Assembly (NCBI GenBank): GCA_011525805.1
Contig: WYBR01000109.1
Span: forward strand, 124,001-188,000
Reading direction: 5' to 3'
Origin: Vicinamibacteraceae bacterium
GTDB lineage: Bacteria > Planctomycetota > Phycisphaerae > Phycisphaerales > UBA5793
Length of the DNA: 64,000 nucleotides
Part shown: positions 55,948-64,000 of the stretch, piece after piece
How positions within the stretch are numbered: the stretch's first letter is position 1
Layout of the letters: each line of letters opens with the position of its first letter
The notes under the pieces: generated by a model
The model's database searches: none
What the model saw: only the letters and a program-made list of their open reading frames with translations
Told to the model about the DNA's origin: nothing
Position numbers and translations under genes: made by a program

Positions 55948-56904
55948 CTATGCGAGTGAGAGCGGGCGCAAGCGCATGCCCGGCTCGAACGGGCGGCCGT
56001 TGCGGAAGGCGTCCAGCGTCATTGCCCGTCCGCCTTCGGGCTGGATCTCAATCACCTCGATCGTCCCCGACGCGCACGCTATGCGCCGATCGGCGAGTAC
56101 CGTGCCAGGCGGCTCGGCGGCAGTTTGCTCGCCGTAGTCGTGCACCCGGAGCAAGCGCACCGCAGCGCCGTCGAGCGCCACGCGGCAGCCCGGCCAGGGC
56201 GTGAGGCCGTGGATGCGCGCCCGCACCATCGCCGCGGGCAGGTTGAAGTCCGTCGTCCCTTCCTCCTTGCGGAGTTTCGGCGCCCGCGTCGCGAGGGATT
56301 CATCCTGCGCGACGGGCCGCAACTCGCCGCCACGGTGGGTTTCAAGGACCCGCGCCACGAGTCCGCCGCCGAGGCGCGCCAGTCGATCGTGCAGTTCACC
56401 CGCGGTCTCCTTCGGATCAATCGGCGTGGACTCGGCGGCGAGAATGTCGCCCGCGTCCATGCGCTGGGCCAGCGTGATGACGCTTACGCCCGTGGTCGTG
56501 CAGCCGTCCATCATCGCCCGCTGAATCGGCGCGGCGCCGCGGTACGCCGGCAGGAGAGAACCGTGCAGGTTGATGGCGAAGCGGCCGTCGATCAGGGCCG
56601 GGCCGATCTTCTGCCCGAAGGCGATGACGACCAGCGCGTCGGCACGCTGCGCCGCGATCTCCGCGACGATCGCGGGTGCGTTCACGTCGGACGTCGTGAT
56701 GCGCGCCACCGCGTGTTCGGCGGCCCACTGCGAGACCGGCGTCGGCGTGAGGCGCTGCCGGCGCCCCGCCGGCCGGTTGGGCTGGGAAACGATGAGATCG
56801 ATGGTGAAGCGATCGCTCTGCCGCGCAAGATGATCAAGCGTCGGCAGGCCGAAGGCCCCGCTGCCGAAGAAGACGATCTGCGTTGGTCCATGGACGTCCG
56901 CCAC
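55948..56904 (-). CDS. fmt: Methionyl-tRNA formyltransferase
   Basis: A 318-residue enzyme that formylates Met-tRNAfMet with 10-formyl-THF. The N-terminal formyltransferase domain has FFGSGAFGLPTLDHL, INLHGSLLPAYRGAAPIQRAM (the His, and the Asn just before it, are catalytic) and MDAGDIL. The C-terminal domain includes RARIHGLTPWPGC. The start is GTG 56904, with GGAG five bases upstream. def lies 195 bases upstream on the same strand, separated by a dispersed repeat and an 8-base tandem repeat. The two genes together process initiator tRNA and nascent N-termini. Confidence 0.95.
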   Translation of the reverse strand: MADVHGPTQIVFFGSGAFGLPTLDHLARQSDRFTIDLIVSQPNRPAGRRQRLTPTPVSQWAAEHAVARITTSDVNAPAIVAEIAAQRADALVVIAFGQKIGPALIDGRFAINLHGSLLPAYRGAAPIQRAMMDGCTTTGVSVITLAQRMDAGDILAAESTPIDPKETAGELHDRLARLGGGLVARVLETHRGGELRPVAQDESLATRAPKLRKEEGTTDFNLPAAMVRARIHGLTPWPGCRVALDGAAVRLLRVHDYGEQTAAEPPGTVLADRRIACASGTIEVIEIQPEGGRAMTLDAFRNGRPFEPGMRLRPLSLA

Positions 56905-56997
56905 ACATGCTCCGCGTTCACTTCAATGCTGGTGAGGGAGTTGGTCTGCACTGGCCCGTCGTCGCGCTCCCCTGCGCCGAGCCTCCGGGTCGTCGTT

Positions 56998-57060
56998 CGA
57001 CCCTGCCCTCGGCTCTGATGCTCAGGCTTGAAGAGAGGCTCACGACCGAAGGGCGGCGAA
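56998..57060 (+). repeat. Dispersed 63-bp repeat, copy A
   Basis: The segment matches the reverse complement of 63938..64000 with about five differences over 63 bases, and copy B continues past the window end. It contains pairing arms (CCcTCGG...CCGAAGG in this copy, CCTTCGG...CCGAAGG in the other), so the transcript could fold. Copy A lies in the fmt-def gap; copy B follows a DUF4159 gene. Both are intergenic. Confidence 0.75.
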
Positions 57061-57071
57061 ACGGTTCCCCG

Positions 57072-57101
57072 ATGCCTCGATGCCTCGATGTCTCGATGTC
57101 T
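57072..57101. repeat. 8-base tandem repeat ending on the def stop codon
   Basis: About 3.75 units of ATGCCTCG/ATGTCTCG run from 57072 to 57101, next to copy A of the dispersed repeat, and reach the def stop codon (57100..57102, minus strand). Its role is unknown. Confidence 0.7.
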
Positions 57102-57621
57102 ACTTCTTCCCCGCCCGTTCCAATTCCTTGAGGATCCTGCGATTTGCGAGTTTGGCCATCTGGCCAAAACGGTGGATAATGAGTCGCCCGTCGAGGTGAT
57201 CGCACTCGTGCTGCCAGACGCGGGCGAGGAGTTCGCCGCTGCGGAGGGTGAAGCGCCGGCCGTCGAGGTCGGTGGCTTCGATGGTGATGATCGGCGGCCG
57301 CCACACGTCGCCAAGCACCTCCGGCAAACTGAGGCAGCCTTCCTCCGCGGCCTCGAGTCCGCCTTCCGGCTCGCGGAGGACGGGATTGACGTACACGCGG
57401 TCGGACTCGCCCTCCTGGCCGCTGTTGGCCACGAAGAGGCGCCACGAAAGGCCGACCTGCGGCGCCGCCAGTCCCACACCCCGCGCCTCGCGCATCAGTT
57501 CGAGCATCCGCGCCGCGACGCTCCGCACTTCCGAGGTGACTTCCTCGACCGGGCGCGCCGTCTTGAGGAGCATGGGGTGCGGGTAGCGCAGGATGGCGAG
57601 GGAGGCGGGATCGACGGTCAT
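57100..57621 (-). CDS. def: Peptide deformylase
   Basis: A 173-residue metalloenzyme that removes the formyl group from nascent proteins. All three motifs are intact: GVGLAAPQVG (motif 1), EGCLSLP (motif 2, with the metal Cys) and QHECDHLDG (motif 3, HExxH). The C-terminus is basic. ATG 57621 was chosen because motif spacing fits and TACCAT (57628..57633) ends six bases upstream; the frame is open further upstream to 57807 but that would be unusual. fmt lies downstream on the same strand. Confidence 0.95.
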   Translation of the reverse strand: MTVDPASLAILRYPHPMLLKTARPVEEVTSEVRSVAARMLELMREARGVGLAAPQVGLSWRLFVANSGQEGESDRVYVNPVLREPEGGLEAAEEGCLSLPEVLGDVWRPPIITIEATDLDGRRFTLRSGELLARVWQHECDHLDGRLIIHRFGQMAKLANRRILKELERAGKK

Positions 57622-57627
57622 CGGCCG

Positions 57628-57633
57628 ATGGTA
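57628..57633 (-). promoter_or_regulatory. -10 hexamer of a leaderless promoter (def)
   Basis: On the minus strand TACCAT ends six bases (CGGCCG) before ATG 57621. Confidence 0.55.
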
Positions 57634-57690
57634 GGCCAGAGGCGTTCGATCGTTATCGAACCCGCGGCCCAGTGCGTTCGTACTGTCGGG

Positions 57691-57719
57691 TTGACGCTCC
57701 GCTCGGGAATCTCTATTGT
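57691..57719 (+). promoter_or_regulatory. Sigma70-type promoter of the TPR-kdsB unit
   Basis: TTGACG (57691..57696) and TATTGT (57714..57719) are exactly 17 bases apart. The leader to TTG 57832 would be about 106 bases and contains GAGGAA. Confidence 0.6.
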
Positions 57720-57831
57720 GTGCGCCGCATTGCCGCACACGGCAGACAGGCCCGAAACCTGAATCCATCCAGTCATCTGGACGATCGGCCGCGAGTGCGA
57801 CAGGCAAGACCCGGCAGCAGAGGAATGTTCA

Positions 57832-59322
57832 TTGGCCTGGTTCAAGCGTAAAGACGGCGGCAACGGCTCTGCAGGCGCCGACGACGGTGGCGGACTCAAC
57901 ATCCAGCCCGACAAGGCCCGCGCCTGGTTCAACCAGGCGCGGACCGCGGCCGACACCCGCAACTACGCCTACTCGATCACCTGCTACCTCAACGGCCTCA
58001 AGTTCGATCCGACGAACATCGACGCGCACAAGAGCCTCTACGAAATCGCCAGCCTCTACGTCCGCGCCGGCGGCAAGCCCGCCGCCGGCAAGGAAATCCG
58101 CAGCATGCTGGGGGACAAGCGCCCCGTCGATCGCCTCGCCGCCGCCGAACTCGCCTGGATCACCGACATCCTCAACAGCAACCTCAACCTCCGCTTCGTC
58201 TCCGAAGCCGCTGATCTCGGCCTCACCGAAGTCGCCTACTGGGCGGGCGAGATCGGCGTCAAGGTCCTGGCGCGCAACAAAAAGCCCGCCAAGAACGCCT
58301 TCGTCCAGTACGTGGACATCTTCGAGCAGATCGGAGCGTACGAGATCGCGGTGCAGGTCGGCGAGATCGCCCTCAACATGGATCGAACTGACGCGGCCCT
58401 CCAGGCCCGCATCCGCAACCTCTCCGCCCAGGCGACAATGGACAAGGGCCGCTACGAGGCCAACGTCGGGCAGGAAGGCTCCTTCCGCGGCAGCATCCGC
58501 GACGCCGAGGCCCAGAAGCAACTGATCGAGGAGGACACCTTCGCCGCCGGCACCGAGGCGATGGCCCGCCGGATCCAGCGAGCCCGCACTGAGTGGGAGG
58601 CCAACACCCTCGACACCGCCGCGATCCAGCGCCTCGGTGACCTTCTCGGCAAGTCGGGCGATGAGAAACTCGAGAGCGAGGCGATCGAGGTCTTCCGCAA
58701 GGGCTACGCCGACACCTCCGAGTACCGCTTTCGCATGCAGGCGGGAGACATCCGCCTGCTCCAGAAGCGCCGCCGCATCCGCGCCATGCGCGACAGGGCC
58801 GAGCAGTCCGGCGACCCGGCCGACGCCGCGCGGGTTGCGACGGCCGAGCGCGAATTGCTCGAAACCGAAGTGGTCGAGTTTCGCGACCGATGCGAAAAAT
58901 ACCCGACCGACCTCGGGCTGCGCTTCGAACTCGGCCGGCGCCTCTACGACCTCGGCCGCTACGACGACGCCATTCCCGTCCTGCAGGAAGCCCAGAACGA
59001 CGCCCGCCACCGCGCCAAGGCGCAGCACCTCATCGGCCTGTGCTTCCTCAACCACGAGTGGTTCGAGGAGGCGACGGAGTCGCTGCGCCTCGCCGTGGAC
59101 ACCTACGAGTTCAAGGACGACGACCAGCACCTTGCGATGCGCTACGACCTGATGTGCGCCCTCGAAGCCCACGCGCGCGAAGACGGCGACTTGGCCGCGG
59201 CCGAGGAGGCGGGCGAGCACGCCAAGACCATCGCCCTCAAGCAACTCGCTTTCCGGGACATCCGCCAGAAGCGCGACGCGATCCGCCAACTCATCAAAGA
59301 TCTCAAAGCGAAGCAGACGTGA
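57832..59322 (+). CDS. TPR-repeat protein of unknown function
   Basis: A 496-residue soluble helical protein without a signal peptide. TPR-like units are visible near the N-terminus (ARAWFNQARTAADTRNYAYS and ITCYLNGLKFDPTNIDAHKS) and C-terminus (LGLRFELGRRLYDLGRYDDA and IPVLQEAQNDARHRAKAQHL). A charged middle region (KQLIEEDTFAAGTEAMARRI and similar) is coiled-coil-like. The start is TTG 57832; the in-frame N-terminus MAWFKRKDGGNGS fits, and AGAGGAA lies about nine bases upstream. kdsB begins five bases after its stop, so the two form a unit. Function unknown. Confidence 0.75.
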   Translation: MAWFKRKDGGNGSAGADDGGGLNIQPDKARAWFNQARTAADTRNYAYSITCYLNGLKFDPTNIDAHKSLYEIASLYVRAGGKPAAGKEIRSMLGDKRPVDRLAAAELAWITDILNSNLNLRFVSEAADLGLTEVAYWAGEIGVKVLARNKKPAKNAFVQYVDIFEQIGAYEIAVQVGEIALNMDRTDAALQARIRNLSAQATMDKGRYEANVGQEGSFRGSIRDAEAQKQLIEEDTFAAGTEAMARRIQRARTEWEANTLDTAAIQRLGDLLGKSGDEKLESEAIEVFRKGYADTSEYRFRMQAGDIRLLQKRRRIRAMRDRAEQSGDPADAARVATAERELLETEVVEFRDRCEKYPTDLGLRFELGRRLYDLGRYDDAIPVLQEAQNDARHRAKAQHLIGLCFLNHEWFEEATESLRLAVDTYEFKDDDQHLAMRYDLMCALEAHAREDGDLAAAEEAGEHAKTIALKQLAFRDIRQKRDAIRQLIKDLKAKQT

Positions 59323-59326
59323 CGGC

Positions 59327-60064
59327 ATGAGCGACGTGGTCGTGGTCATTCCCGCCCGTTTCGCCTCGACTCGCTTCCCCGGCAAGCCGCTCGCCTCCCG
59401 CACGGGGCGGCCGCTCATTCAGCATGTGTGCGAACGCGCGGCGCAGGCGCGCACGCCTTCGCGCATCCTCGTCGCCACCGACGACTCGCGCATCGCGCGG
59501 GCCGTCGAGTCCTTCGGCGGGCAGGTCGCCATGACCCGCGCCGATCATCCCAACGGCACCAGCCGCCTCGCCGAAGTCGCGCGCGACCTGGCGGCCGGCA
59601 CGGTCGTCGTCAACGTGCAGGGCGACGAGCCGGAGATCGACCCCGCCCTCATCGACAAGGCTGTCGAAGCCCTCGGCGACGCGGACATGTGCACCGTCGC
59701 CTCCCCCTTCGCCGCCGATGAAGATCCGGGCGACCCCAACATCGTGAAGGTCGTCGTCGATCGCCTCGGCCGGGCGCTGTACTTCTCGCGCGCGCTGATC
59801 CCGTTTCGGCGCGACACGATCGGGCCGGGCCAGCCGCTCAAGCACGTGGGGCTGTATGTTTACCGCCGCGAGTTCCTGCTCGAATATGTCGGCCTCACCC
59901 CCACGCCGCTGGAGCGCACCGAGCACCTCGAGCAGTTGCGCGTCCTCGAGCACGGCCGGCGCATCCAGGTCGTCATCGCCGAAACGAAACACCACGGCAT
60001 CGACACGCCCGAGCAGTACAACGACTTCGTCCGTCGCTGGCAGGCGGGGCGGCAAGGCGCCTGA
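59327..60064 (+). CDS. kdsB: 3-deoxy-manno-octulosonate cytidylyltransferase (CMP-KDO synthetase)
   Basis: A 245-residue enzyme that activates KDO with CTP for attachment to lipid A, so the cell makes LPS-type outer membrane. Motifs are VIPARFASTRFPGKPLA (nucleotide-binding P-loop-like), VNVQGDEPEIDP with the metal Asp, VKVVVDRLGRALYFSRA, HVGLYVYRREFL and TPLERTEHLEQLRVLEHG. Length is normal. ATG 59327 follows the TPR gene by four bases. Convergent with a lipoprotein gene. Confidence 0.95.
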   Translation: MSDVVVVIPARFASTRFPGKPLASRTGRPLIQHVCERAAQARTPSRILVATDDSRIARAVESFGGQVAMTRADHPNGTSRLAEVARDLAAGTVVVNVQGDEPEIDPALIDKAVEALGDADMCTVASPFAADEDPGDPNIVKVVVDRLGRALYFSRALIPFRRDTIGPGQPLKHVGLYVYRREFLLEYVGLTPTPLERTEHLEQLRVLEHGRRIQVVIAETKHHGIDTPEQYNDFVRRWQAGRQGA

Positions 60065-60145
60065 GCGACATGTGCCACGGCGTCGCGCCTCGCGCCGCGA
60101 TTCATCGAGGCTCCACGCCCGTCGACTCGGGCAGGCGCCGCTGAG

Positions 60146-60889
60146 TCATGGCACGCGCAGCATCAGCCGATTCTTCGTCCAACTCAGGAACCCCAGCGCC
60201 TTGACCTTCTCTTCGCTCTCCTCGACGGTGAGGCCGAGCGCGGGGACGTACCACGTCGTCGTCGTCTCTTCCACGTCCGCCCGGCCGAGGTCGAGAATGA
60301 GCACGCGTCGGAAGCGCGCGGCGCGGTGAACGCCTCCGTCGGGCAGCAGCACGTCCTGGTCGTCGAGGCGCGTGAGCGTCTGCGTCGCCGTGCCTCGATC
60401 GACGAGGCGCGAGACGTTGTGCAGCGAGCGGACGACGACGCTGTGGCTGGTCGGCAGTTCGGCCCCGCTCGCCAGCGCGCTGCTGAGCAGCGGCAGGGGC
60501 GGCTCAAAGGTCGTTACGGCGCGGTTCGGAAAGTCCGTCGTCTCGATGAGCAGCGTCTCGGCGTCGCTCACGCTGAAGACCGAAGCGCGGTCGCCGCCGA
60601 TCTCGCTTCGCCAGAGGTCGTGGCCGCTCGGCGCCGTCGTCATTGTGATGAGCGAGGCGACAGCGCCCCTTTCAACGACGGCGAAGGTGCGCGAGCCGGC
60701 GGTCGCGGCCGCGAGGGTTCGATCGACGGCAATCTCGGCTGGCCACTGTGCGGCGAAGAGGTCGGCGGGGTCGTATCCCGGCAGGAGGCCGTCGGGCCCC
60801 GGCCGCGCGCACCCTGCCGCGAGCAGCAGTGCCGACGCGGCCGCGAGGACGGCGGCGCGATGGCGGGCGGACGGGAGGGCGGCGGGCAT
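60146..60889 (-). CDS. Uncharacterised lipoprotein
   Basis: A 247-residue protein with a lipoprotein signal peptide (ALLLAAGC, Cys about 27), then a beta-rich domain. The middle reads LDDQDVLLPDGGVHRAARFRRV and the end has TTTTWYVPALGLTVEESEEKVKALG, reminiscent of small outer-membrane lipoproteins that share a lipid-binding fold, but I cannot name a family. ATG 60889 was preferred to a TTG two codons upstream, and TAACCT (60896..60901, minus strand) ends six bases before it. Divergent from the DUF4175-like gene. Confidence 0.7.
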   Translation of the reverse strand: MPAALPSARHRAAVLAAASALLLAAGCARPGPDGLLPGYDPADLFAAQWPAEIAVDRTLAAATAGSRTFAVVERGAVASLITMTTAPSGHDLWRSEIGGDRASVFSVSDAETLLIETTDFPNRAVTTFEPPLPLLSSALASGAELPTSHSVVVRSLHNVSRLVDRGTATQTLTRLDDQDVLLPDGGVHRAARFRRVLILDLGRADVEETTTTWYVPALGLTVEESEEKVKALGFLSWTKNRLMLRVP

Positions 60890-60895
60890 GATCAA

Positions 60896-60901
60896 AGGTT
60901 A
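60896..60901 (-). promoter_or_regulatory. Weak -10 hexamer, possible leaderless promoter (lipoprotein)
   Basis: On the minus strand TAACCT ends six bases (TTGATC) before ATG 60889. It is a weaker match than the other leaderless cases. Confidence 0.35.
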
Positions 60902-60999
60902 TGGACGGGGGGCAGTCGCGTCGATGAGCGAGGCGGATTCCGCGGCGTCGATCACTCCGGCCGCCGTAGGATTGGTCGGCTGAGCAGGACCGCATCCGG

Positions 61000-63225
61000 A
61001 TGTCCGCACGCGACCCCATCCCGACGACGCGTCAGCGTCTTGACGGCGCCCGGCGCGAGCTGGCGCTGTGTGCCGTCGCCCGTCGCGTCGCGGCCGCGCT
61101 GTGGCAGTGGCTCGCGCTTGCCGGCGCGATTGTCTCGATCGACGTTTTGTGGCCGCTGCCCGCGGGCGTGCGATTCGTCGCGGCCGGATTGCTCGTCGTC
61201 GGCCTCGTGCGGATCGCGTGGTCCTGCGTTCCTCCGCGGATCGTGCGCAGCGCTTCGCACTCGCGCCTGGCGCGCGAGATCGAGCGCCGCTGCCGCCTGC
61301 CGCATAACCCGCTCATCAACGCCGTGCAGTTGCAGACAGCGCCGGTGCACGGAGCGGCCCCGGATCTTCAGGCGCTGCTGCTCGACCGCTCCGCGCAGCG
61401 AGGCGAGGAGGCGGCGCGAGCCACCGGCGAGTCCCGACTCGTTGATGCTCCAGCGCGCAACCGCTCGCGCATCCTGCTGCTTGGCGGCGCTGCATTCGCG
61501 GCGGCGGTGATGCTCCTGGCGCCGCGCCAAATTGACGCCGTCGCGCTGCGCCTTGTCGATCCCTGGGGCGATCATCCGCCCTACACGCCGCTGACCTTCG
61601 AGGTCAACACTGAACCCGAGGCATCGGACCTGATCTACGGCGACTCGGCGAGGGTGAGCGTGCAGATCGCCGGCGGCGCCGTGCCGCACGCCGACTTCGT
61701 CTGGCGGGCGCGCGGCGATCGCGGCGCGGCGCCGCAGCGGCAGCCGATGAGCGCGAGGGCGGGTCTCACGGCCCAAGAACTGCCGCAGTATTTGACGCTC
61801 CTGCGCGACTGCCGCGAGGCGATCGAGTTCATGATCGACACGCCCCGCGGCCGTAGCCGATGGTTCATCCTCGAACCGCGCCTCGAGCCGCGCTGGGCTT
61901 CGCGCACGCTGACGATCTCCGGTCCCGACTACGCCGCAGCACAGGGGCAGCGCCGCCTGCCCCTTGCCGATGAGCCCGAGCCGCTGCGCGTGCTGGAGGG
62001 CAGCCGACTCGAACTCAATGCGACCTCGACGCTGCCGTTGCGAGCCATGAAGGTTACGGCCTCGCCAGACGCCGTCGCGCTCTCCGCGGATCGGCGCGAA
62101 GCGGAATGGACGTGGAAGGCCACGCCTGCGGGTCGGCGCGAGATCGACTTCTCGCTCATCGGCCCGACGGGACTTGCGTCCTCTCGGATGCGAGTCGTGG
62201 TGGAGGTCGTCGCCGATGCGCCGCCGGTGGTGAAGATCGAGCGCCCGCCTGCCCGCGCCGCGGCCCTGCCCGATCAGCAGTTTACCTCGCGCGTGACGGC
62301 GAGCGACGATCTCAGCCTCGCCGATCTCACGCTCACGACGCAGGTCGAGCGAAACGGGGAGATCATCGAGGAGCACGAGCAGCGCCTCGGGCCGGCTGAA
62401 GGCGAAGGCGTGAGCCGCGCCGGCGCCCGCCTTGACGTCGATCTCATGGCCTTCGACGTGCAGCCTGGCGACATCGTGCGCATGCAGGCACGCGCTTCCG
62501 ACCGCCGCGGTGAGGAGTTCGGCGGATCGCAGACCGCCGAGTCAACCCCCGCCGACATCCTCATCATCGATCAGGCCGCCTACAACGCGATGTGTCAGGG
62601 CGCCAGCCCGGGGGCCGAAGGCGAGTGCGAAGGTGAGGGGCAAGGGCAGGGTCAGGGGCAAGGGCAGGGCGAAGGCCAGGGGCGCGGCGCCGGCGGAGGA
62701 GGCGGGCAAGGTTCATCCGCCGGCGACCTGCCCGGCGCCGCCTCCGGATTCTCCATCGGCGGGCAGAATGGAAACGGCGAGCAGCCAGGACGCGGCGCGT
62801 CAGACGATGCCGACTCGTCAGACTCCGCCGCTTCGTCGGGCGCCGGCTCATCTCCCGGCGGCGCGCCGGGCGGTCGCACTCCCATCGACTCCAGCGGGCA
62901 ACCGACGAGTGAACAACTCCTCGCCCGCGCGCAGGCCGAGTCGCGCTCGCTTATCGAGCAGGAGAGCGAGGACCAGCCGGTGCAGGGGGAGAGCAACCCG
63001 GACGCGCCGCGCCGCCACCTGGACTCTCCGGAAGATGCGGGCGAAGCGCCGCTGCCGGCCGCCAGCCGGGCGACGCAGCGCCTCGGCGAGGCTCAGGCGC
63101 CGGACGAAGCCGGGCCGACCCTTGGCGTCCCCGCGCGCTACCGCGATCTCGTCGCGCGGTACTTCAAGCGGCTCGCGGAAGCATCATCCGCGGAGCCGGA
63201 AAGGAGCACGACCCGTGATGAGTAG
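61000..63225 (+). CDS. DUF4175-like membrane protein
   Basis: A 741-residue protein with two N-terminal transmembrane helices (about residues 35-72), a third near 155-170, then a large periplasmic beta-rich part including VDPWGDHPPYTPLTFEV and a DDLSLADLTL segment. A Gly/Gln-rich run (GEGQGQGQGQGQGEGQGRG, about 544-575) and an acidic, Ser/Asp-rich stretch precede the C-terminal helix VPARYRDLVARYFKRLAEA. It resembles DUF4175-type proteins found near MoxR/Bat-like gene clusters, but no MoxR ATPase is in the window. Its stop overlaps the following DUF4159 gene by eight bases. Confidence 0.6.
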   Translation: MSARDPIPTTRQRLDGARRELALCAVARRVAAALWQWLALAGAIVSIDVLWPLPAGVRFVAAGLLVVGLVRIAWSCVPPRIVRSASHSRLAREIERRCRLPHNPLINAVQLQTAPVHGAAPDLQALLLDRSAQRGEEAARATGESRLVDAPARNRSRILLLGGAAFAAAVMLLAPRQIDAVALRLVDPWGDHPPYTPLTFEVNTEPEASDLIYGDSARVSVQIAGGAVPHADFVWRARGDRGAAPQRQPMSARAGLTAQELPQYLTLLRDCREAIEFMIDTPRGRSRWFILEPRLEPRWASRTLTISGPDYAAAQGQRRLPLADEPEPLRVLEGSRLELNATSTLPLRAMKVTASPDAVALSADRREAEWTWKATPAGRREIDFSLIGPTGLASSRMRVVVEVVADAPPVVKIERPPARAAALPDQQFTSRVTASDDLSLADLTLTTQVERNGEIIEEHEQRLGPAEGEGVSRAGARLDVDLMAFDVQPGDIVRMQARASDRRGEEFGGSQTAESTPADILIIDQAAYNAMCQGASPGAEGECEGEGQGQGQGQGQGEGQGRGAGGGGGQGSSAGDLPGAASGFSIGGQNGNGEQPGRGASDDADSSDSAASSGAGSSPGGAPGGRTPIDSSGQPTSEQLLARAQAESRSLIEQESEDQPVQGESNPDAPRRHLDSPEDAGEAPLPAASRATQRLGEAQAPDEAGPTLGVPARYRDLVARYFKRLAEASSAEPERSTTRDE
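62629..62724 (+). repeat. Low-complexity Gly/Gln-coding repeat
   Basis: A run of GGGCAAGGGCAGGG-like units inside the DUF4175-like gene. It codes for alternating Gly and Gln and is likely a flexible linker. Confidence 0.6.
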
Positions 63226-63922
63226 CCTCGCCGCCAGCGCCGCCGTTGTCGCCGGCGCTCTTCTCGCCGCAGCGACTCAACCGCTCTCATCGCCGACGGA
63301 CGCGGCGCAGCCGCCAGGCGAATCGGCGCCGGCCGAGACGCTCGTGCGCGTCGCCCACCTCGTCTACTCGACGAACAAGACGAGTCAGTGCTTCGCCACG
63401 GGATACCTCGACCTGCTGGCGCGCGAGACGGAGATCAAGGTCGATCGCCAGGCGGTCCGAGTCGATCTCGATTCCGAGGATCTTTACCAGTATCCCTTCG
63501 CGGTGCTCAGCGGCGAAGGGGGTTTCCGCTTCACCGACGCCCAGTTCATGGCCCTGCGCGAGTACATCGAACGCGGTGGGTTCATCCTCGCCTCCGCCGG
63601 CTGCTCCAACGCCGAGTGGAACCGGTCGTTCCGCGACGAGATGCGGCGGCTCTTTCCGGAAGGGGCGCTCGAACCGCTCGAACTCTCCGAGGACATGTTC
63701 CAGACCGTCTTCCGCATCTCCCAGTTGAGAACCAAGTCGCACAACACCGAGGTGAAACTCTTCGGCATGCGCGTCAACGGTCGCCTCGCGCTGGTCTACT
63801 CCCCCGAGGGGCTCAACGACACCGGCAACGCCGGCGGCGGATGCTGCTGCTGCGGGGGCGACGAGATCCGCGACGCCAAGTACATCAACGCGAACATCCT
63901 GGCGTGGGTGTTGATGCACTGA
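63218..63922 (+). CDS. Exported DUF4159-domain protein
   Basis: A 234-residue protein with an N-terminal signal (MSSLAASAAVVAGALLAAATQ) and a DUF4159 domain: VRVAHLVYSTN, DLDSEDLYQYPFAVLSGEGGFRFTD and LREYIERGGFILASAGCSN, with a later FPEGALEPLELSEDMF. The C-terminal GGGCCCCGGDE has a run of four cysteines that could bind metal. The start is ATG 63218; a GTG three bases upstream has better spacing to AAGGAG (63201..63206). Such proteins occur next to DUF4175/MoxR-type genes and may be involved in envelope or stress functions; the precise role is unknown. Confidence 0.72.
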   Translation: MSSLAASAAVVAGALLAAATQPLSSPTDAAQPPGESAPAETLVRVAHLVYSTNKTSQCFATGYLDLLARETEIKVDRQAVRVDLDSEDLYQYPFAVLSGEGGFRFTDAQFMALREYIERGGFILASAGCSNAEWNRSFRDEMRRLFPEGALEPLELSEDMFQTVFRISQLRTKSHNTEVKLFGMRVNGRLALVYSPEGLNDTGNAGGGCCCCGGDEIRDAKYINANILAWVLMH

Positions 63923-63937
63923 CATCGAGGCAATTGG

Positions 63938-64000
63938 CTCGCCGCCCTTCGGTCGTGAGCCTCTCTTCGAGCCTGAGCCTCAGAGCCGAAGGCAAGGTCG
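63938..64000 (-). repeat. Dispersed 63-bp repeat, copy B (truncated by window end)
   Basis: Reverse-complement copy of 56998..57060 with about five differences. It follows the DUF4159 stop by 16 bases and reaches the last base of the window, so its true length is not known. Confidence 0.75.

Follow-up and report, generated by a model that had tools for sequence, protein, structure and literature searches.

Two window copies of a planctomycete repeat are probably RAYT-associated REPs that carry two nested palindromic elements of about 30 bp

Cyanobacterial SDRs (small dispersed repeats) were reportedly described by Elhai et al. in 2008 as palindromic units of 21–30 bp that reside within tandem repeats, within repeats of other kinds and inside copies of themselves, and the REP/RAYT (TnpAREP) system was reportedly treated by Ton-Hoang in 2012. 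For one cyanobacterial repeat, SDR5, precise insertion is described in PMC4390886. REPINs are REP doublets, mostly inverted, and form REP-based non-autonomous mobile units tied to RAYTs, as stated in PMC3116915. Two further sources report GTAG and CGTC repeats, some of them in Planctomycetes (PMC3733652), and several classes of TnpAY1, of which class 3 occurs in Planctomycetes and has a CnGA foot and the Y motif YV[VI].EQ (PMC6006769).

The window, i.e., the whole stretch of 64,000 nucleotides that was analyzed, belongs to a genome of 4.54 Mb in 138 contigs (G000) and is about 86% coding according to a crude gene caller. An Rfam scan of the window yielded no match besides one tRNA gene (2581–2654). 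The first-pass annotation had claimed that about 58 of 63 bases are shared between positions 56998..57060 and 63938..64000, the latter read as the reverse complement, and that the second copy runs beyond the window. A direct comparison verified the number, and the second copy was found to extend 35 bp past the window end at 64000. The complete element comprises 100 bp in each copy, with 89 of 100 positions identical. When the window was compared with itself using BLAST, the copy pair had an E value of 3e-22, and the next-best matches reached at most 23.3 bits for copy 1 and 25.1 bits for copy 2. The likeness is confined to the element, apart from a short tandem repeat of the CATCGAGG type on the foot side of both copies; the similarity scores of the flanks were 24 and 16, compared with 19 for the 95th percentile of random pairs. 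Inspection of the termini of both window copies by eye revealed no target duplication. Copy 1 lies between def (peptide deformylase, 57100..57807, minus strand) and fmt (methionyl-tRNA formyltransferase, 55948..56904, minus strand), both named by reading of their translations, and copy 2 occupies the gap between two converging genes, one ending at 63922 on the plus strand and the other called from about 64058 on the minus strand.

A search of the genome with the 63-bp sequence retrieved only the two long copies and partial matches. From the partial matches a shorter core of about 39 bp was derived (pattern GCGCTCCCYTGCGCSGAGCCTTCGGG, up to three mismatches), which is present in 60 copies, 30 on each strand, while the reversed-pattern control gave none. 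At 58 of the 60 distinct loci it has a short form that is nearly invariant in its stems (consensus of the canonical strand GTTTAGCCGCGACCCGAAGGCTCTGCGCAGGGGAGCGCG). The 63-bp query finds only two copies because both are rare enlarged forms of this repeat. The first-pass annotation had held that a genome with only these two copies would point to a local duplication; two were literally all that the 63-bp query found, but the dispersed family is still upheld by the 60 core copies. Of its two suggested affiliations, REP- or MITE-like, the former agrees with the core copies and with the RAYT genes described below, and the latter is not supported, given that the partner gene is of the Y1/HUH type and that target duplications were not observed.

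Most REPs are clear of the crude gene calls (44 of 59). The remaining 15 overlap with calls and, by reading of the list, lie near their 5′ ends, and therefore these overlaps are probably due to wrong start choices. Closely spaced inverted doublets are absent among the 60 copies, the nearest neighbours being 455 bp apart; six neighbouring pairs lie within 2 kb, and one of them brackets a RAYT gene. The core was found 2, 31, 9, 12, and 0 times in the relatives G001 to G005, respectively, and the REP was present in all four genus-mates that were searched. In the def-fmt gap that holds copy 1 the element is missing from all five relatives (G001–G005), as judged by eye and by the lack of a core match there. 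For copy 2, three of the five relatives could be compared (G002 is alignable on one side only and G005 is not collinear), and by eye the element is missing from all three (G001, G003, G004). The def-fmt gap of G004 contains another dispersed-looking repeat, GTCATTCCTGCGCAGGCAGGAATCCA (L317).

On their foot side, 14 of 59 REPs are accompanied by tandem repeats of about 7–9 bases (GATGCCTC, TAGTGCC); on the opposite side the number is 0 of 59, and among random windows it is 1 of 600. One of them is the octamer-type array (GATGCCTC and further units) at 57063..57100 on the foot side of copy 1, without strand assignment; the others lie at the G000 loci L136, L149, L153, L154, L156, L172, L173, L179, L182, L184, L191, L192, and L032. 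At a locus in G004 (L110, C49 near 3155) a REP is followed by tandemly repeated GGGTCGCGGCTAAACG units, which correspond to its foot half.

The comparison of the long copies with the short ones revealed a composite structure, a REP with two nested inserts of about 30 bp, which the earlier reading had missed. Copy 1 (56963..57062, minus strand) begins with the foot GTTTCG (57057..57062; GTTTAG in the consensus, from column counts of the 58 short copies), followed by the REP bases CCG (57054..57056). Then comes the left part, CCCTTCGGTCGTGAGCCT (57036..57053), of a 31-bp insert termed SDR-B, which is missing from the 58 short REPs and is present unsplit at G000 C6, C20, C33, and C15. The nested SDR-like insert of 30 bp (57006..57035), the right part of SDR-B, CAGGGTCGAACGA (56993..57005), and the remaining REP hairpin, CGACCCGGAGGCTCGGCGCAGGGGAGCGCG (56963..56992), complete the copy, all of them on the minus strand; the nested insert agrees at 27 of 30 positions with a widespread 30-mer. 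Copy 2 lies on the plus strand at 63936..64000 and continues to 64035 (contig position C95:188035). Its foot is decayed to GGCTCG, and it contains the left part of SDR-B (63945..63962), an exact copy of the 30-mer, CTCTTCGAGCCTGAGCCTCAGAGCCGAAGG (63963..63992), the right part of SDR-B (63993..64005, the window ending at 64000), and the remaining REP outside of the window (64006..64035). When both inserts were removed, the leftover REP matched the short-copy consensus at 36 of 39 positions for copy 1 and at 33 of 39 for copy 2.

SDR-B and the 30-mer are both palindromic. Compared with a short REP, the C6 copy is cleanly interrupted by 31 bp between CCG and CGA, and the same kind of insert was found in a sister REP on C20, C33, and C15; SDR-B copies are also present in G002, G003, and G004. 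In the window copies SDR-B is itself split after GAGCCT by 30 additional bases. All SDR-B inserts in REPs occupy a single position, and thus a single ancestral insertion followed by spread of the REP would explain them equally well as repeated insertion. This suggests that the nested arrangement in the window copies arose once rather than several times. The SDR-B form was also seen in seven contigs of the viral collection (L454, L455, L456, L457, L458, L459, L460), in some cases inside another palindrome.

The Pfam domain Y1_Tnp was detected in six of six genomes, with eight matches in G000. Outward-facing REPs flank a RAYT gene of about 195 codons in G000 (C6:24452-25036), G002 (C152), and G004 (C6); the neighbours at these three loci are of the enoyl-CoA hydratase type by reading, and the loci are orthologous. 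A second RAYT gene of G000 is located together with REPs on C30. Relative to the first protein, the remaining three show 57, 74, and 87% identity, and the HUH motif HVH and the motif YV[QE]ENP are common to the four. The family models were compared with the in-frame translations of three of them, which matched Y1_Tnp with E values of about 1e-5 and the NCBIfam model REP_Tyr_transpos with 9e-12 to 2e-13, which is under the cut-off of that model. A RAYT profile gave only weak matches to PDB sequences, namely to entries named transposase, with E values from 0.001. The genomes richest in REPs (G000, G002, G004) carry close RAYTs, G003 with its nine REPs has only a remote one, and G001 and G005, in which this REP type has 2 and 0 copies, have more distant RAYTs (E values 2e-73 and 1e-69). 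It is suggestive only that the presence of a close RAYT tracks the number of REPs across these six genomes. The anatomy makes membership in the REP/RAYT system well supported, and, by analogy, a small transposase-like enzyme probably assists the dispersal of the hairpin REP.

The foot was followed further in a RAYT scan of named genomes, which returned 211 relatives, of which 80 were kept, nearly all of them from planctomycetes. The foot count was based on 69 of the 80 loci, the other 11 having short flanks and being left out, and two of the 69 were judged to be the G002 and G004 genes themselves. Of 138 flanks, 72 contain GCTAAAC, the reverse complement of GTTTAGC, within 200 bp, as against 0 of 364 far segments. 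Both flanks carry TAAAC or GTTTA at 49 of the 69 loci, and at least one flank does so at 54. The foot is constant across the RAYT loci although the flanking repeats vary. A conserved unpaired foot beside the REP hairpin is seen as GTTTAG in the consensus and also at the flanks of planctomycete RAYT genes.

With up to three mismatches the 30-mer was found in 17 of 298 genomes of the class (16 of 297 when G000 is left out), and the control gave none; in genomes with at least 90% completeness and at most 5% contamination the number was 8 of 231. It is exact in 14 of the 17, and these belong to the families f1, f11, f15, and f17, counted from the listed places. Most places, 14, are in G214, and at the same threshold the 30-mer was not found in G001 or G004. 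The exact 30-mer was not found in the contigs of the viral collection, and none of 72,556 plasmid records matched 80% of a 34-base query. With a wider pattern, CTTCGNNNNTGAGCNTCANNNNCGAA, and up to two mismatches, 13 matches were obtained in G000 and 59 in G214, counted over both strands, so that one palindrome was often counted twice; the control gave 0 in nine of ten genomes and 2 in G004, and several of the two-mismatch matches look like chance.

After removal of duplicates and contig edges, the 63 occurrences of the 30-mer were reduced to 57 unique sites. At 14 of them it is nested in a relative of its own, and 43 lie elsewhere, a few of the latter having three mismatches and being possibly due to chance (e.g., L362). 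At these 43 sites the same 30-mer is found in many unrelated flanks with exact joins, and the sequences that it occupies comprise, among others, short tandem repeats and the loops of hairpins. The first base after the join is C at 42 of 43 and the third is G at 39 of 43; where SDR-B enters the REP, the third base is A, not G. For each length from 3 to 8 bp, exact direct repeats were seen at 0 or 1 of the 43 joins. When the ends were shifted by up to three bases, the best four-base direct repeat was present in 10 of 43, and thus a very short target duplication may exist under other definitions of the ends. The flanks were also rejoined (9 + 9 bases, one mismatch allowed), and for 11 sites the rejoined sequence was found elsewhere in the DNA searched; the exact join gave 22 matches compared with 6 for six shifted joins combined. 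When G173, a member of the same genus, was searched for empty orthologous counterparts of two 30-mer sites of G134, a single 74-bp match to the query start was obtained, and the region is missing there. Two related 30-mers of G000 (L370, C95:25749, and L371, C8:574) are part of one larger repeat that both places have in common, and their flanks are similar.

Taken together, it is proposed, with a probability of roughly three in four, that the window copies are RAYT-associated REPs into which two palindromic mobile elements of about 30 bp were successively inserted. In view of the anatomy and by comparison with REPs elsewhere, the Y1/HUH nuclease RAYT would recognize the REP hairpin in single-stranded form, together with the GTTTAG foot, and would move copies around the genome. 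SDR-B would then have inserted between the CCG and CGA of a REP, and the 30-bp relative would subsequently have entered SDR-B at GAGCCT|CAG. The composite would afterwards have been dispersed as a single unit, because the nesting is identical in both copies and little is shared past their ends. For the movement of the 30-mer, our preferred guess is that a short hairpin enters exposed single-stranded loops. The 30-bp element appears to behave like a cyanobacterial SDR in its clean insertion, its Y|CNG preference, and its occurrence within tandem repeats, palindromes, and copies of itself. The odds seem even that this geneless sequence is a live planctomycete mobile element, which would enter hairpin loops and tandem repeats precisely at Y|CNG without duplicating the target, would nest in itself, would be carried along in RAYT-associated REPs, and would pass intact between families.

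Several other explanations were weighed. The inserts could be immobile, a single hairpin family being resized by slippage or template switching and the 30-mer being a conserved structural module, e.g., a hairpin that binds a protein or has a role in transcription. Long palindromes readily undergo template switching, the 30-mer is palindromic, and several G000 inserts reside inside REPs; slippage would, however, not yield an exact 30-mer with exact joins in many unrelated flanks and genomes, which renders this explanation unlikely. The 30-mer could also have originated in an IS3-type insertion sequence, as part of its leader, and been captured by REPs later; this would fit two G005 sites (L339, L035) at which the 30-mer, changed in one copy, lies in a small hairpin upstream of an IS3 orfA-like start; the downstream sequence MK.K.HSPEQIITKLREADAML is what we take to resemble the start of IS3 orfA. 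Yet the other sites that were inspected have differing flanks without a common leader, and in G005 the 30-mer resides in the loop of GACCTC..GAGGTC or a near-copy, which makes the IS-like sequence appear to be a further target. An origin in such a leader is thus regarded as highly improbable.

A little less credible still is a local duplication, which would have produced an inverted segmental pair 7 kb apart and no dispersed family. The presence of just two full-length copies in the genome, inverted on the same contig, would be expected from it, but the two copies are enlarged forms of a REP of about 39 bp, and the 60 core copies contradict a purely local origin; moreover, the likeness stops near the element ends, and the element is missing at both places in the comparable relatives (5 of 5 and 3 of 3). 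The lowest probability is given to the view that the 30-mer is a laboratory or assembly contaminant of metagenome assemblies. The exact identity across 14 genomes of four families, many of them fragmented, and the fact that 0 of 72,556 plasmid records hold most of the 30-mer could be read in this way. A contaminant is at odds with the mutated copies (copy 1 of the window has three changes), with the nesting in mutated relatives, with the Y|CNG preference, and with the related SDR-B form in the seven viral-collection contigs.

If the proposal of successive insertions into REPs is true, very small mobile repeats extend beyond cyanobacteria, two kinds of tiny mobile DNA parasitize each other, and the search for the enzyme can start from a concrete element of 30 bp whose target is defined. 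GTTTAG would be a further foot type, for a large group of planctomycete RAYTs, and would permit a direct test of how RAYTs read a guide sequence. Literature searches for planctomycete RAYT/REP systems and for small dispersed repeats retrieved no description of these elements, and none of five repeat sequences was found there either. The REP/RAYT system as such is established; as far as these searches show, what appears to be new is its GTTTAG foot and the presence of an SDR-like planctomycete element within REPs.

As in the REP/RAYT systems (REPtrons; Nunvar 2010, PMC2817692; Bertels and Rainey 2011, PMC3116915), a short intergenic palindrome is present in many copies on both strands and has an unpaired foot at one end, and copies flank a Y1/HUH gene for a protein of about 195 aa with a Y..NP-type motif. 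The feet given in PMC3733652 and PMC6006769 are GT[AG]G, CGTC, or CnGA, whereas the foot found here is GTTTAG; together with the motif YV[QE]ENP it also sets the present genes apart from class 3 TnpAY1 as outlined in PMC6006769. Known systems contain inverted doublets, but the REPs described here are mostly single. REPINs, as presented in PMC3116915, are similar in being REP-based units tied to RAYTs and differ in their spacing, the nearest REPs here being 455 bp apart. The 30-mer resembles cyanobacterial SDRs in being a small palindrome with precise insertion, residence in tandem repeats and in other repeats, and nesting in itself. It differs from them in its length of 30 bp, its planctomycete hosts, its sequence, its preference for Y|CNG instead of HIP1, and the sharing of one and the same 30-mer by genomes of four families.
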